This document shows positions 35,274-42,041 of a stretch of 47,177 nt of DNA, in pieces (the first letter of the stretch is position 1; each line of letters begins with the position of its first letter). A model generated the notes under the pieces. The model searched no databases and was not told where the DNA came from. It saw only the letters and a list, made by a program, of their open reading frames with translations. Origin of the DNA: Verrucomicrobiota bacterium (GTDB taxonomy: Bacteria > Verrucomicrobiota > Verrucomicrobiia > Verrucomicrobiales > DEV007); NCBI GenBank assembly GCA_002862135.1, contig PKCI01000021.1, positions 1 through 47,177 of the forward strand. The letters are read 5' to 3'. The translations under genes were made by a program, and so were the position numbers.

Positions 35274-35690
35274 ATGTATTGGAAACCGCATATTATCAGG
35301 CTCACCGAAGGACCCTCCGCGCGCGCCGGGAAGATTGATGCGCTCTTCTATCCACCGCTCGCTGAGGAGACAATCGCGGCCTGGGAATCGGAAAAAGGTC
35401 ACAGACTACCTGAAGAAATTCGTTCCTACCTGCTCCAATCAAACGGGCTTGAAGCGCAGTGCGGCACGATCTGGCCCGTCCTCCCTTTTGAGCAATGGGA
35501 GTTCATTTACGACGAATGCACCGCTCCACACCCGTGGCTCCGGTTCGGTGAAACCAAAGACTTCCGCTACCTGCTCTCCCTCGGCCATAGCCCCTCCGTC
35601 TACCGTCACGCCATCTTTGGGTCAGACGAAGAATTCTTCGCCGGAAACTTCGGTGACTATCTTGAGAAAGTATTCCGAAACGAAGCCTAG
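35274..35690 (+). CDS. SMI1/KNR4 (SUKH) family protein
   Basis: This 138-residue protein has the SUKH pattern: PPLAEETIAAWESEKGHRLPEEIRSYLL, then SNGLE, WPVLPFEQWEF and a late DEEFFAGNFGDYLEKV. SUKH proteins are best known as immunity proteins against nuclease and other toxins of polymorphic systems, though many are orphan or regulatory. No toxin gene with the usual Rhs, PAAR or LXG features lies nearby, so it could be an orphan immunity gene or have another binding role. No signal peptide. Its last 4 bases overlap the end of the convergent sulfatase gene. An inverted repeat lies 67 bp upstream. Confidence 0.8.
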   Translation: MYWKPHIIRLTEGPSARAGKIDALFYPPLAEETIAAWESEKGHRLPEEIRSYLLQSNGLEAQCGTIWPVLPFEQWEFIYDECTAPHPWLRFGETKDFRYLLSLGHSPSVYRHAIFGSDEEFFAGNFGDYLEKVFRNEA

Positions 35691-37099
35691 TCTCCCGCAC
35701 TAGGCCCTATCACTTCAGCCATTTCGAAACGAAGTCTGTCCACCACTTCGCCCATCTCTTCAAAAAGATTGTTTTCTTCACCAGGATCTTTGGCCAGATT
35801 ATAAAGCTGCCCCTCCGGTTCCTCTCTATACGCTTCGGCCGACACCTTGGTGAAGCCACCGGAACCTTTGCCCTCAATCAGTTTCCAGTCACCGGAACGG
35901 ATGGTCATCAGTTTACGACCCGACTGCATTACCACTGGCGGGCGCTCGCGGGAGCTCTTCCCTCTCAAAGTCGACAGAAAGCTATGACTGTCCGGCCCGC
36001 CGTTCGCGGCCAACTCACCACCAGTCAACTCGGCCAGCGTCGCGAGAAGGTCGGTAAACGAGATTGTCTTATCCGCCACCGAGCCCGCCTCCACCGCCTC
36101 CGGCCAGCGAATAATGAAAGGCATGCGATGCCCAGCCTCCCAGGCGTCGGCCTTCATCCCCCGAAAACCGCCGGAAGAATCATGGTTCAATCGCTCGACA
36201 TCCTCTTCATACCAAACCGGCCCGTTGTCGGAAGTAAACAAAAGTAGGGTATCCTCAGTCATACCCGCCTCTTCCAGAGCGGACAAAACCTTTCCAATCT
36301 CGTCGTCGACCATGGTCATGAAGTCACCATACATTCCAGCTTTGCTAGTCTCTTTGAATTCCTCTGAAGGCAGCCACGGTGTGTGAGGTGCCGGATAGGC
36401 CAGGTAAAGCATAAGAGGTTTTTCCTCATCACGGTTTTTGATCACCTCGATCGCTTCAGCGGTGAGGCGCGGCAGGACTCTGTCGAGTTTCAAGTCAGGG
36501 GAGATGCCACCGGCGCGCCAGAATTCACCTTGAATCGGTGACCAACCGTCAGTCGCATTGTCTCCAATTTCGTCTGTAGGAGGCATCACCGCTTTGTCTC
36601 CCCGAATGTAGAAATACGGAGGAATGTCTGTGGACGCTCGTATCCCGAAATAAGATTGAAAACCCTGGTCAACCGGTCCACCGGGAAGCGGATTATCGTA
36701 ACCGGTTTCACGAAAACCGAGGTGCCATTTCCCAACCATTGCGGTTTGATAACCCTGACGTAACAATAATTTCGCTATAGTGTCTTCCTTTTCTTGGATT
36801 ACCGGTTTGGTCGGCCACACCGAAATATCTGTTCGAAAAGGATAGGTCCCGGTCATCAATCCATATCGCGAGAGGTGACAAAGAGGGCCCGGAGCGTGGG
36901 CATCCGTGAATCGCATTCCCGCGGCAGCGAGTTCATTAATATTCGGCGTTTTAATCTGTGATTCCGGATTGTAGCACGCGGCATCGCCGTAGCCCATGTC
37001 GTCGACGAGAATCACCACCACATGAGGATTCTTACCGTAGACAACGGAAGAAGCTGCGACAATTCCAGCCGCGAGGGCAAGCGTTTGAAGAAATCTCAT
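35687..37099 (-). CDS. Sulfatase with variant active-site motif C-H-L-S-R
   Basis: A 470-residue exported sulfatase: signal peptide about 1-22, metal site VDDMGYGDA, GKWHLGF, TSDNGPVW, and a normal C-terminal subdomain. The core motif is Cys74-His-Leu-Ser-Arg78, where the family needs C-x-P-x-R (or C-x-A-x-R). The Leu is a CTC codon at 36872-36874, one base from a Pro codon. The Pro helps the formylglycine-generating enzyme recognise the site, so maturation may be poor or rely on another maturase (inference). All other catalytic residues look intact, and the gene shows no frameshift. It is monocistronic by position and convergent with the SUKH gene. Confidence 0.93.
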   Translation of the reverse strand: MRFLQTLALAAGIVAASSVVYGKNPHVVVILVDDMGYGDAACYNPESQIKTPNINELAAAGMRFTDAHAPGPLCHLSRYGLMTGTYPFRTDISVWPTKPVIQEKEDTIAKLLLRQGYQTAMVGKWHLGFRETGYDNPLPGGPVDQGFQSYFGIRASTDIPPYFYIRGDKAVMPPTDEIGDNATDGWSPIQGEFWRAGGISPDLKLDRVLPRLTAEAIEVIKNRDEEKPLMLYLAYPAPHTPWLPSEEFKETSKAGMYGDFMTMVDDEIGKVLSALEEAGMTEDTLLLFTSDNGPVWYEEDVERLNHDSSGGFRGMKADAWEAGHRMPFIIRWPEAVEAGSVADKTISFTDLLATLAELTGGELAANGGPDSHSFLSTLRGKSSRERPPVVMQSGRKLMTIRSGDWKLIEGKGSGGFTKVSAEAYREEPEGQLYNLAKDPGEENNLFEEMGEVVDRLRFEMAEVIGPSAGD

Positions 37100-37641: not shown

Positions 37642-38214
37642 GTGATAACGTCTGACCCTATTGTATCGGAGTACGCTTCGCACATCGAAAGAAGCCTGGC
37701 TAGAGCCGCTGGAGAACTGGGACCCGAGGAGTTCAAAGGAGTCATTGGAGACCCCGGCTTGTCCGTCTTACGGACGGCCATGGACTACATCAATGCTGAC
37801 TTCATCTCCATCTGGTTTGCCAATCAGGATCAAAAAAAACTCGTCGTCACCCACAGCGAACCTGACCCCTCATTCATCGGCTGGGAGCAATCCATTTCCG
37901 AAGGCCTCATATCGCTGGCCTACGCTTCCGAGCAATCGCTTTGCGAAAACCAGGTCTACCTGAACGCTCAGCACTCGAAACGCATCGATGAAGCTCTCAA
38001 TCAGGTTACCTGCGCAATGATCGTGACGCCTTTCTACATGTGCGGGACGCTCCGCGGTGTGATCAGCACCGTCCAGATCAAGGACTCCGAGGATGCCCCA
38101 GATCCCCCCGGCTTCTCCGCCAGTAATCTTAATCGGATGCGTCGTCTTTCCACCGTCCTCGAAAGACTGGTCAACTATCGCCTTCTTACGAGACTACTTG
38201 ACCTCGAACTATGA
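37642..38214 (+). CDS. GAF-domain protein, first gene of the GAF/subtilase/L,D-transpeptidase trio
   Basis: A 190-residue soluble protein. Residues about 45-175 have the GAF pattern: TAMDYINADFISIWFANQD, then LVVTHSEPD, the ISEGLISLAY segment, and an IVTPFYMCGTLRGVISTVQI core strand pair. GAF domains bind small molecules such as cyclic nucleotides, haem or chromophores, or serve as dimer modules. There is no enzymatic output domain, so this is a stand-alone sensor or adaptor. GTG start. Its stop overlaps the ATG of the subtilase gene by 4 nt (ATGA), so the two are made together. Ligand unknown. Confidence 0.75.
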   Translation: MITSDPIVSEYASHIERSLARAAGELGPEEFKGVIGDPGLSVLRTAMDYINADFISIWFANQDQKKLVVTHSEPDPSFIGWEQSISEGLISLAYASEQSLCENQVYLNAQHSKRIDEALNQVTCAMIVTPFYMCGTLRGVISTVQIKDSEDAPDPPGFSASNLNRMRRLSTVLERLVNYRLLTRLLDLEL

Positions 38215-39011
38215 TTGACCATGCCATCGCCGACGCCTCCTGGCCCAGCCTTGAAGAAGTGCGCTCCGCTGCGAAGTCAGGCAGTGGTGCTGGGGTCAAG
38301 GTGGCTGTAATCGATTCGGGAATTGAAGCGGATCATCCGCGCCTCAAGGGGCTCAAGTTGACCGACTCAATCGCGTTTGAAGAACAGAATGGCCGTATTG
38401 AAACGCTCGAAGGGCTAGGCAGCGATGCCTATGGTCACGGCACTGCCATCGCCGACATCGTCCACCAGTTTGCCCCGGACGCCGAGGTAGGAAGCTTCCG
38501 GGTGATTGACGCTCGCAGCTTTTCCAAGACACATCTTATCTGCGCCGGTGTGAAGGAAGCGATCAAGCGCGGCTACCAGATCCTGAACTGCAGTTTTGGC
38601 TGCCGGGGTCTGGCCAAATTTATTCTGCCTCATAAAGAGTGGGCTGACGATGCCTGGCTCAAGGGAGCCCATGTCGTTGCCGCAGCCAGCAACGCCGACA
38701 GCACAGAGGCTGAATGGCCGGCTCATTTCGCATCTGTCATTGGCGTTGATCTTGCGGACACCGACACTAACGACGTCTTTTATCGCCCCAATCACCTTGT
38801 CAGTTTCTCCGCAAAGGGCGAAAACGTCGAGGTCGCCTGGCTGGGCGGAGGGATTCAGATGCAGACCGGGACGAGCTTTGCGGCGCCGCGGGTTACCGCT
38901 CTGATTGCCAGAATTCTTTCCGTTTATCCTGCAATTTCTACTTCGATGATGCACACTCTCTTGTCATCTGTCAGTGAGCCTTGGCATACCGAGCTCAGTT
39001 CCGACTGGTGA
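38211..39011 (+). CDS. Cytoplasmic subtilisin-like (S8) serine peptidase
   Basis: A 266-residue S8 peptidase with the full triad: Asp35 in VAVIDSGIEADHP, His76 in DAYGHGTAIADI, and Ser222 in GTSFAAPRV, plus an oxyanion-type Asn in AAASNAD. It is a minimal catalytic domain: no signal peptide, no propeptide and no C-terminal domain, so it should work inside the cell without self-chaperoned folding. Compact S8 enzymes without export signals occur as peptide-maturation or regulatory proteases. Its translation is coupled to the upstream GAF protein (ATGA overlap), and the following gene (33 bp gap) encodes a two-part protein with a cytosolic domain that could be its substrate (inference). Confidence 0.92.
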   Translation: MIDHAIADASWPSLEEVRSAAKSGSGAGVKVAVIDSGIEADHPRLKGLKLTDSIAFEEQNGRIETLEGLGSDAYGHGTAIADIVHQFAPDAEVGSFRVIDARSFSKTHLICAGVKEAIKRGYQILNCSFGCRGLAKFILPHKEWADDAWLKGAHVVAAASNADSTEAEWPAHFASVIGVDLADTDTNDVFYRPNHLVSFSAKGENVEVAWLGGGIQMQTGTSFAAPRVTALIARILSVYPAISTSMMHTLLSSVSEPWHTELSSDW

Positions 39012-39044
39012 TATTGACACCAAACCTAAAACCAGCTTACTACC

Positions 39045-40259
39045 ATGAAAGATGCTGCTACCTTCCTAGGGCCCGTCAATGAACTCCCCTCTGAGGGCGC
39101 CGATCTGGAACCATCCAGAAACTCCGAAGTCGAATTCGTCGCTTCGATATTCGCCGGCTCCGAGCTGACCTTTGATGTCTCGCGGGACGGAGTTTTCCTC
39201 CAATCCAATCCACAGGAAACCGACCTCTTCCAGGAATTCGTAGTCGATCTCGATGCCAGCGAAGAGGAACCCTACCTGCTGTGGAAAGACAACGCCTTTG
39301 ATCTGCATCTCCAAGGCCTCTTCTGCGACACGAGGCCGTTTGAAGCACTCTCCGATGCTTCTGACCCGGAAGACTATGTCCGACGTTTTCTCGAAGTTCT
39401 TTCCACCTCACTTGACGATCCGGCGATCAAGCGAGACGGGGCGACTTTGCCCCTGATTCGCTGGCAGGCTGGCGACGACGGTGAGTCTGCCCGAATCCAA
39501 CTGCTCGGGCTGCTGCTAACCAACAACGACCAGTTCAAGGAGTTTTGCGAAAACCAGGACGGCGATATCGGACTTATTTTCGAAGATCCAGAGGTGGAAG
39601 CCCATGGCGTTCGCGAAGTCGTAACCGCTGTTGCCTTGCTCGGGGTCACCATGAGCACCACGACCAGTGCCCAAGCGGGTCTCTTTAACTTCAAGGCCAA
39701 AAAAAAAGCCAAGGAAATGCGCGTTGCCCAGCTCAATGCGATCCAGGAAGCCCAGAGAGCTCCAATCCAGAACGCTCAGCGCACGGGCTACCTCGACGTC
39801 CACAACGACGCCTACATCGACTATCAGCTTCTTGAAACCGGCAAAAATGCTGAGAAGAAAGTCATTGTAGATATCGGACGTCAGCGCGCTTACCTGCTGG
39901 TCGGCAAACAGGTCGCTATTGATACGGCGGTTTCCACGGCACGTTCTGACAAACACACACCGCGCGGGACTTTCAAGGTCACTGAACGCATTGCTCACGG
40001 CAAGGTGTCCACTATCTACAATGTCGAAATGCCTTATTGGCAACGCCTCGATTCCACCGCCATCGGCATGCACATTGGCGATCTGCCCGGTTACCCCGCC
40101 TCAGCAGGCTGCATTCGCCTGCCTTACAGCGTGGCACCGGTGCTGTTTGCTAATATGGACAGCGGTATGACGGTCGAGGTTGTCGAGCTTTGGGATGCTG
40201 AGGGGCTGCAACAGCACCAACCAATGCGAATCGCCCAGGTTTCCCACTACAGCCGCTGA
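39045..40259 (+). CDS. L,D-transpeptidase (YkuD) with about 190-residue cytosolic-type N-terminal domain and internal export signal
   Basis: A 404-residue protein in two parts. Residues 1-185 are an acidic domain I do not recognise (contains FVASIFAGSELTFDVSRDGV and RIQLLGLLLTNNDQFKEF). Residues 187-211 look just like a signal peptide, a hydrophobic run ending SAQA, but placed internally. Then follow a Lys/Ala/Gln-rich helical stretch (215-245) and a YkuD L,D-transpeptidase domain (about 265-395), with His343 in MHIG and the catalytic Cys356 in ASAGCIRLP. YkuD enzymes crosslink peptidoglycan or attach proteins to it. The N-terminal domain would stay in the cytoplasm unless cleaved off. It follows the subtilase gene by 33 bp. 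Confidence 0.88.
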   Translation: MKDAATFLGPVNELPSEGADLEPSRNSEVEFVASIFAGSELTFDVSRDGVFLQSNPQETDLFQEFVVDLDASEEEPYLLWKDNAFDLHLQGLFCDTRPFEALSDASDPEDYVRRFLEVLSTSLDDPAIKRDGATLPLIRWQAGDDGESARIQLLGLLLTNNDQFKEFCENQDGDIGLIFEDPEVEAHGVREVVTAVALLGVTMSTTTSAQAGLFNFKAKKKAKEMRVAQLNAIQEAQRAPIQNAQRTGYLDVHNDAYIDYQLLETGKNAEKKVIVDIGRQRAYLLVGKQVAIDTAVSTARSDKHTPRGTFKVTERIAHGKVSTIYNVEMPYWQRLDSTAIGMHIGDLPGYPASAGCIRLPYSVAPVLFANMDSGMTVEVVELWDAEGLQQHQPMRIAQVSHYSR

Positions 40260-40508: not shown

Positions 40509-42041
40509 TTATCGACTGCGACCGTCGGCGATAATCTTGTCGAGGCGGGCCTTCATTTCTTCTGCCTTCTTTGCGTTGGATTCAGCCAAGTCGTTTTTCT
40601 CGACCGGATCATCAGCCAGGTTAAACAACTGGATCTTGGGTACTGCAGTCGTTTCCAGTAATTTCTCAACCACGACGTTGCGAGCCTTACCCTGAGCGTG
40701 GACCTGGAGTTTCCAGTCGCCCTGTCGGAAGCCGAAGTTTCCACGGCTACCGTTATCCTGCTGGACCAACTCGCTGCGTCCTTTAGCACCTTCTTTACCG
40801 AGCAGTGCCCCCATCACGTCGATGCTGTCACGAGCGGCATCCTCTTCGACGGCAGTGCCAGTGAGACTCGCAAAGCTAGAGTATAGGTCGATCGTGCAGA
40901 CCATCTCATCAGAAACGCCGGGCTCAATCGTGCCCTTCCAACGGGTGATGAACGGGGTGCGAGTGCCGCCCTCGTAGACGCTGTATTTACCTCCGGTAAA
41001 TACACCACCTGCTTTGTGATCACCCAGCTTTTCGAGAGCTTCGTCGGCGTAGCCGTCATCCATCACCGGACCGTTGTCCGAGCAGAAAACAATCATCGTG
41101 TTTTCAGCGAGACCAAGATCATCGAGGCCCTTCATGATTTCGCCGACACACCAATCGAGTTGGACGATTACATCAGCGCGGTAACCAAGATCAGTTTTTC
41201 CCTGGAAACGCTCATGTGGAATCCGTGGCACGTGAAGATCGTGAGAAGCAAAGAAAAGGAAAAACGGGCCGTCCTTGTTTTCCTCCATGAACTCGAGGGA
41301 CTGCTCCACCCACTTGTCAGCAAGATCCTCATCGCGGAAGCGCGCCTTGTGGCCACCAGTGTAGAATCCAATCCGGCTGATACCGTTGTGAATTGTCGCG
41401 TTGTGACCATGGGTCCAGTCCATCTTCAACGTTTCTCGCTGGTTGATACCGGTGGGGTGTTCTGGACTCGGAGCCTTGCTACCGACCCAAATAGGATCGG
41501 AGGGATCGAGATTTAGGACGTGGTGGTCTTTCACGTAGACCTGAGGTACGCGGTCATTAGTGGTCGGCAGGAGGAAGCAGGTATCGAAACCAATCTCGAG
41601 CGGCCCGGGCTTCAGCTCGCCGTTCCAGTCCGGACCATCTTCGCCACCGAGACCCAGGTGCCACTTCCCGATGATCGCGGTGGAATACCCGGCCGTCTTG
41701 AACATGTCACCGATGCAGGTGATTTCGTGGTTCACCCGAAGAGGAGAACTCGGAGCCGCAATTCCCGTGTTCTTCTCACGGAACGCGTAAGTGCCGGTCA
41801 GGAAAGACCAGCGTGTTGGGGTGCAGGTAGATGCGGAGCAGTAACCGCTCGTGAAACGCACTCCTTCAGTGGCCAGTTGGTCGATATATGGCGTTTCAAA
41901 GCTTTCAGTACCGTAGCAGGAAAGATCCCCGTAACCCAAATCGTCTGCCATGATGACAATTACGTTGGGTTTCTGCGGCTCCGCTGCGGCAAGGCTTAGG
42001 CCAGTGAGAATGACGAGGGTGAAAAAAAGGCTGTTTTTCAT
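40509..42041 (-). CDS. Type I sulfatase, exported (C-T-P-T-R)
   Basis: A 510-residue sulfatase of the arylsulfatase-A-like branch. The signal peptide is about 1-20 (MKNSLFFTLVILTGLSLAAA). Metal ligands are in MADDLGYGDLSCYG, the formylglycine Cys73 in CTPTR, GKWHLGLGG supplies the catalytic Lys and His, and CSDNGPVMDDG the second metal pair. A His-rich loop (HDLHVPRIPHERF) matches carbohydrate sulfatases. No extra C-terminal module. It probably acts on a sulfated glycan in the periplasm. It faces the L,D-transpeptidase gene across a 249-bp gap that contains a small GGGG/CCCC stem near 40369-40383. Confidence 0.95.
   Translation of the reverse strand: MKNSLFFTLVILTGLSLAAAEPQKPNVIVIMADDLGYGDLSCYGTESFETPYIDQLATEGVRFTSGYCSASTCTPTRWSFLTGTYAFREKNTGIAAPSSPLRVNHEITCIGDMFKTAGYSTAIIGKWHLGLGGEDGPDWNGELKPGPLEIGFDTCFLLPTTNDRVPQVYVKDHHVLNLDPSDPIWVGSKAPSPEHPTGINQRETLKMDWTHGHNATIHNGISRIGFYTGGHKARFRDEDLADKWVEQSLEFMEENKDGPFFLFFASHDLHVPRIPHERFQGKTDLGYRADVIVQLDWCVGEIMKGLDDLGLAENTMIVFCSDNGPVMDDGYADEALEKLGDHKAGGVFTGGKYSVYEGGTRTPFITRWKGTIEPGVSDEMVCTIDLYSSFASLTGTAVEEDAARDSIDVMGALLGKEGAKGRSELVQQDNGSRGNFGFRQGDWKLQVHAQGKARNVVVEKLLETTAVPKIQLFNLADDPVEKNDLAESNAKKAEEMKARLDKIIADGRSR

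Follow-up and report, generated by a model that had tools for sequence, protein, structure and literature searches.

Bacterial signal peptides normally stand at the start of the polypeptide chain, where they are read at once. Judged by analogy, the nearest known protease in kind to the subtilisin-like (S8) protease described here is QhpE, a cytosolic enzyme that is encoded with its substrate and trims the N-terminal part of that substrate before periplasmic translocation (PMC7876137). QhpE takes a 28-residue leader off QhpC, which exits via an ABC transporter, whereas the substrate proposed here carries a folded domain some 170 residues long before a Sec-type signal, and a GAF protein is encoded as well. 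Two further systems are analogies in parts. In Providencia stuartii, the membrane protein TatA stays inactive until a protease takes off an N-terminal extension (PMC3712462), but that protease is the rhomboid AarA, the extension has eight residues and the substrate is part of a translocase. In Myxococcus xanthus, the signal-less subtilase PopC is restrained by its partner protein PopD (PMC6434023); PopC differs in being itself secreted and in cutting a surface protein, and the passages on the two do not describe PopD as a GAF protein. The third gene product considered here shares the catalytic fold and the Cys and His residues of YkuD L,D-transpeptidases, and adds to them an N-terminal domain ahead of an internal signal. 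A literature search covering open-access publications found nothing on this combination of genes.

The locus lies in a 47,177-nucleotide stretch of a Verrucomicrobiota contig (PKCI01000021.1), here called the window. Open reading frames in the window give three genes in a row on the forward strand, encoding a GAF protein (37642–38214 (+), 190 aa, GTG start), a minimal, signal-less S8 subtilase (38211–39011 (+), 266 aa) and a YkuD L,D-transpeptidase pre-protein (39045–40259 (+), 404 aa). The GAF and S8 reading frames overlap by ATGA, and 33 bp separate the S8 gene from the YkuD gene. A preliminary description of this DNA had given the gene layout, the overlap, the gap, the protease triad and the SAQA end at residues 208–211 of the transpeptidase, all of which were exact to the base. 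Genes read as sulfatases flank the trio at 35687–37099 (-) and 40509–42041 (-), and because both neighbors lie on the opposite strand, the trio is taken as an isolated operon in the window. Assignment to a defense system was considered and dropped; PADLOC matched the S8 protein with generic subtilase and IetS models only, and the other two proteins had no match.

By its profile match (Pfam YkuD, PF03734, above cut-off, E = 4.6e-13) and its catalytic residues, the 404-aa protein is identified as a YkuD L,D-transpeptidase and a predicted wall crosslinker. The catalytic domain spans about residues 270–379 (39852–40181 (+)), with His343 and Cys356 invariant. The active-site motif (window 40098–40115) reads SAGC in the family of the window and SHGC in orthologues from another family of the order (f4). 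The unrecognized acidic N-terminal domain noted earlier was borne out, as residues 1–185 have a net charge of -30 and a pI of 4.05, lack a Pfam match of weight in the window protein, and reach the Pfam cut-off of no family in any of 24 members. Its proposed length of 185 residues needs adjustment; the AlphaFold model contains an ordered N-domain at residues 1–171 (39045–39557 (+)) and a YkuD domain, and residues 172–221, which contain a conserved junction motif, have pLDDT <50 and are predicted to be disordered. A structure search with the whole model returned a match list filled by YkuD. In the PDB, the N-domain sequence gave a weak match to a ryanodine receptor chimera (E = 0.0018), which was deemed chance. 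The N-domain is under purifying selection, with a dN/dS of 0.13.

The same genome encodes a transpeptidase paralogue that lacks the N-domain. Its N-terminus is an arginine-rich signal peptide whose last residues, SEAGLF, align with SAQAGLF (residues 208–214) of the trio enzyme. Because the buried segment (residues 188–211, 39606–39677 (+), with its AQA end followed by Gly212) aligns to this N-terminal signal peptide, it is read, by homology, as a former signal peptide itself. The signal-peptide-like segment that had been noticed within the protein is thus homologous to a genuine N-terminal signal peptide. From Gly188 to the A-x-A end there are 23 residues, indel-free in the family, and 22–23 in distant members, a few of which have an imperfect A-x-A (L122, L128, L129). 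The segment is only moderately hydrophobic. In the uncut protein its flanks have a mean charge of -4.2 on the N side and +3.1 on the C side; a cut after the conserved Gly would leave a new N-terminus of about +1, as would a cut one residue earlier. The features of a Sec/signal peptidase I substrate (positive n-region, hydrophobic core and A-x-A) would reach the N-terminus only through a cut near residues 187/188.

The window protease matched Pfam Peptidase_S8 (PF00082, E = 1.5e-24) and has a complete Asp35/His76/Ser222 triad and the oxyanion Asn161. It has no signal peptide and no propeptide, being too short for one, and its sequence agrees with the earlier reading of a minimal S8 enzyme with a full triad and no export signal. 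The best NCBIfam match was QhpE (NF049966) at 88 bits, below the curated cut-off of 165 bits; the protease resembles QhpE in its presumed working and is not a member of the family. No qhp-like genes were seen among the neighbors of the trio or of related GAF-S8 pairs when gene neighborhoods were read. PMC3378952 gives S4 and S1 as the main pockets, with S4 non-polar and S3 facing the solvent. In a profile alignment, Glu168 of the window S8 aligns with Gly166 of subtilisin BPN', on the floor of the S1 pocket. This position is Glu in 97 of 98 S8 proteins of the module, and Gly or Ala in three other S8 proteins from related genomes. According to PMC3378952, citing Wells 1987, replacement of Gly166 by Asp shifts BPN' toward Lys at P1; the acidic residue on the pocket floor predicts a basic P1 for the module S8.

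The GAF protein of the window had zero Pfam matches. A GAF-type paralogue and orthologues exceed the Pfam GAF cut-offs, and the model of the window protein (pLDDT 88.8) has GAF domains as its top PDB matches. From these relatives and the confident model, the 190-aa protein is assigned as a stand-alone GAF domain protein, as the preliminary description had called it. Cys101-Glu-Asn, His111-Ser and Asp116 are invariant, and a paralogue at locus L131 keeps the Cys, Glu, Asn, His and Asp of this set; these residues suggest a ligand or redox site. The adjacency and overlap of the two genes are our basis for thinking that the GAF protein probably controls the S8 protease.

The N-domain transpeptidase was found in 35 of 337 Verrucomicrobiales genomes, and in 30 of these its gene immediately follows those for the GAF and S8 proteins. 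Searched for together across genomes, as had been proposed, the three genes are co-inherited, with the contiguous, same-order trio at 24 loci of the family and at six loci of other families in the order. Two of the remaining loci are interrupted by contig ends (L025, L028), and three genomes (G092, G059 and G151) keep the GAF-S8 pair elsewhere. N-domain enzymes without an adjacent protease, named at the outset as evidence against regulated cleavage, therefore do occur in these three, but the pair is retained in the same genome. In the S8 tree, the trio clade (95/95) includes the unlinked proteases of G092 and G059, and that of G151 lies beside the second trio group. S8 proteins scoring at least 379 bits against the trio profile occurred in 26 genomes, all 26 with an N-domain enzyme, and 13 of 34 same-genus genomes lacked both the N-domain and the trio-type S8; these genomes are kin, and the counts describe a pattern rather than independent events. 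As judged from gene content and order, the trio is no chance grouping. Among 388 genomes sampled from the phylum, none outside Verrucomicrobiales had the N-domain, and no plasmid record encodes it. In family f4 the trio sits between the chromosome condensation genes scpA and scpB (L124 5420–10367, L125), with inserted genes in L123, L126 and L127.

The same genome contains a second GAF-S8 pair (G000:C84, L131 4578–6179), whose GAF protein is 32% identical, and this second pair recurs in most genomes of that genus and in many across the family. A gene for a protein of 73–76 aa, unrelated to the transpeptidase, adjoins most of the paralogous pairs (for example at L131, L183, L181 and L185). An ECF-type sigma gene, with Pfam sigma scores at cut-off, lies just upstream of the small gene in several genomes; this arrangement suggests a protease-controlled sigma regulator. 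Paralogous pairs also adjoin a gene for a membrane protein and, in another family, genes for TPR-S (PF20308) proteins (L251 6010–9170, L240), where the small motif protein was not found; TPR-S modules stand beside some GAF-S8 pairs of the order and the trio has no such partner. In the genus, the second pair is followed downstream by a gene whose product has one hydrophobic segment (L131 3601–4476, L137 6300–7205, L186, L191), an N-terminal part that looks PqqD/RRE-like by eye and a tail that looks like a coiled coil; this product reached the Pfam cut-off of no family. Rather than being dedicated to wall enzymes, the GAF-S8 pair is, on the evidence of these ECF sigma, TPR-S and membrane protein neighbors, a reusable module. 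None of the 41 trio or N-domain loci checked contains the small gene, nor does the window, and the small protein and the transpeptidase, as presumed targets, therefore substitute for each other beside the pair.

These two unrelated proteins share a short motif. The small protein carries P[ED][VI]x[GA][HR], and all 35 transpeptidases carry [ED][VIA]x[GA][HR]G directly before the signal segment. Written more fully, the junction motif of the transpeptidase is [ED][VIA]x[GA][HR]Gx[RKH]; in the window it reads PEVEAHG (residues 182–188, 39588–39608 (+)), a candidate S8 site. The motif was spotted by eye first, and the later scan covered all windows, about 27,000 profile window pairs of the small protein against the whole transpeptidase. 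The motif pair ranked first at all widths from 5 to 10, and its score was reached by 2, 0 and 0 of 5000 column permutations at widths 5, 6 and 7. At the candidate P1 position, 56 of 57 small proteins and all 35 transpeptidases have His or Arg. Given the non-polar S4 pocket, the exposed S3 and the acidic S1 floor, [VI]-x-[GA]-[HR] reads as P4–P1; the agreement of the motif with this subtilase footprint is a fit, not proof. The occurrence of one motif in both the small protein and the junction, which was unexpected, lends support to the earlier idea of cleavage. Of the region between residues 185 and 211 that had been put forward for the cut, the junction is favored, and the conserved motif and the S1-pocket Glu narrow the predicted cut to His187 (39603–39605 (+)) and Gly188 (39606–39608 (+)). 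In three loci of genus g24 of family f4 (L237, L238, L239) the gene for the small motif protein lies near the pair, on the other strand, and the motif reads PDVEGH or LDVEGH, which the PDVEGHG of the L128 transpeptidase nearly equals. The motif was not conserved in the TPR-S neighbors or in the membrane protein downstream of the second pair, and some pairs of the order, linked to TPR-S, had neither a small protein nor the motif in the neighbors checked, which speaks against the cleavage reading. A junction-only profile run against nine genomes gave good E-values for the transpeptidase alone and no further cargo.

Read most economically, these comparisons outline a possible route for the enzyme. 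The transpeptidase would be made as a cytosolic pre-protein under the control of the GAF-S8 module, its acidic N-domain masking the formerly ordinary Sec signal peptide behind it. On a cue, the GAF protein would hold or release the protease, which would recognize [ED][VIA]x[GA][HR] within the probably flexible junction, predicted to be disordered, and would cut after the basic residue, between His187 and Gly188. The cut would expose a 24-residue N-terminus with G-x-[RK]-E, a hydrophobic core and A-x-A, acting as a Sec signal, and signal peptidase would then cut at AQA|G and free the wall crosslinker outside the membrane. The comparisons show which genes form the set, that these are inherited together, the homology of the segment to a signal peptide, the motif in common and the conserved Glu of the S1 pocket; we infer that the motif marks where the protease cuts, which bond is broken, that the signal is thereby unmasked and that the GAF protein is in control. 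That the S8 protease recognizes the junction seems to us quite likely and that it cuts there somewhat less so, though still probable; whether such a cut enables export is evenly balanced. The whole mechanism, in which the GAF-S8 module unmasks the export signal, we hold to have about an even chance of being right.

The buried segment could instead be a membrane anchor. The protein would then be bitopic, with the segment as signal-anchor and the N-domain in the cytosol; signal peptidase would free the YkuD domain, and the S8 protease would trim the leftover or act elsewhere. The homology of the segment to a signal peptide and the conserved A-x-A|G would suit this arrangement, as would the N-domain enzymes encoded apart from the pair. 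However, the net negative N flank and net positive C flank run contrary to the positive-inside rule, and the arrangement leaves unexplained why the motif recurs in the small protein and keeps a fixed place where the signal begins, so that we regard it as unlikely, though the most serious of the alternatives. The motif could also be a docking site rather than a cut site; both proteins that carry it would then be ligands or inhibitors of GAF-S8, and the protease would cut another target. A motif common to two unrelated proteins tied to the pair would accord with this, and a precedent for restraint of a signal-less subtilase by a partner is PopD with PopC (PMC6434023). Yet a hydrophobic P4, free P3, small P2 and basic P1, with Glu on the S1 floor, make up the footprint of a substrate, and docking is the less likely of these two readings.

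A cut at the junction could equally remove a targeting or chaperone domain, and the protease might then serve negative control, inactivating the precursor in the cytosol and reducing crosslinking. Selection for destruction would have no need of a cut that leaves a complete signal peptide of 24 residues, conserved in its spacing, and we consider this reading improbable. The least credible alternative is that the genes are merely co-transcribed and that the exported form arises from an internal translation start behind the N-domain. The window has an in-frame GTG at residue 184, but start codons are not kept at any fixed position (10 of 32 in the best case) and ribosome-binding sites occur only sporadically; an internal start for the exported enzyme was rejected for the lack of conserved start codons, and we give it very little credence.

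For unmasking by the GAF-S8 module, the comparison predicts which bond is cut (His187|Gly188), what the protease prefers at P1 and, as a second substrate of the same enzyme family, the 73–76 aa protein. A signal uncovered by a protease would, if true, switch export on after translation, the exported protein here being a wall crosslinker. More broadly, and more tentatively, these bacteria may possess a reusable GAF-subtilase module that reads a dedicated short cleavage code, [VI]x[GA][HR], on a small protein in one branch, with an ECF sigma gene close by in several genomes, and in another branch on a wall crosslinker, whose buried Sec signal the cut would uncover, so that a sensor in the cytosol would time export.
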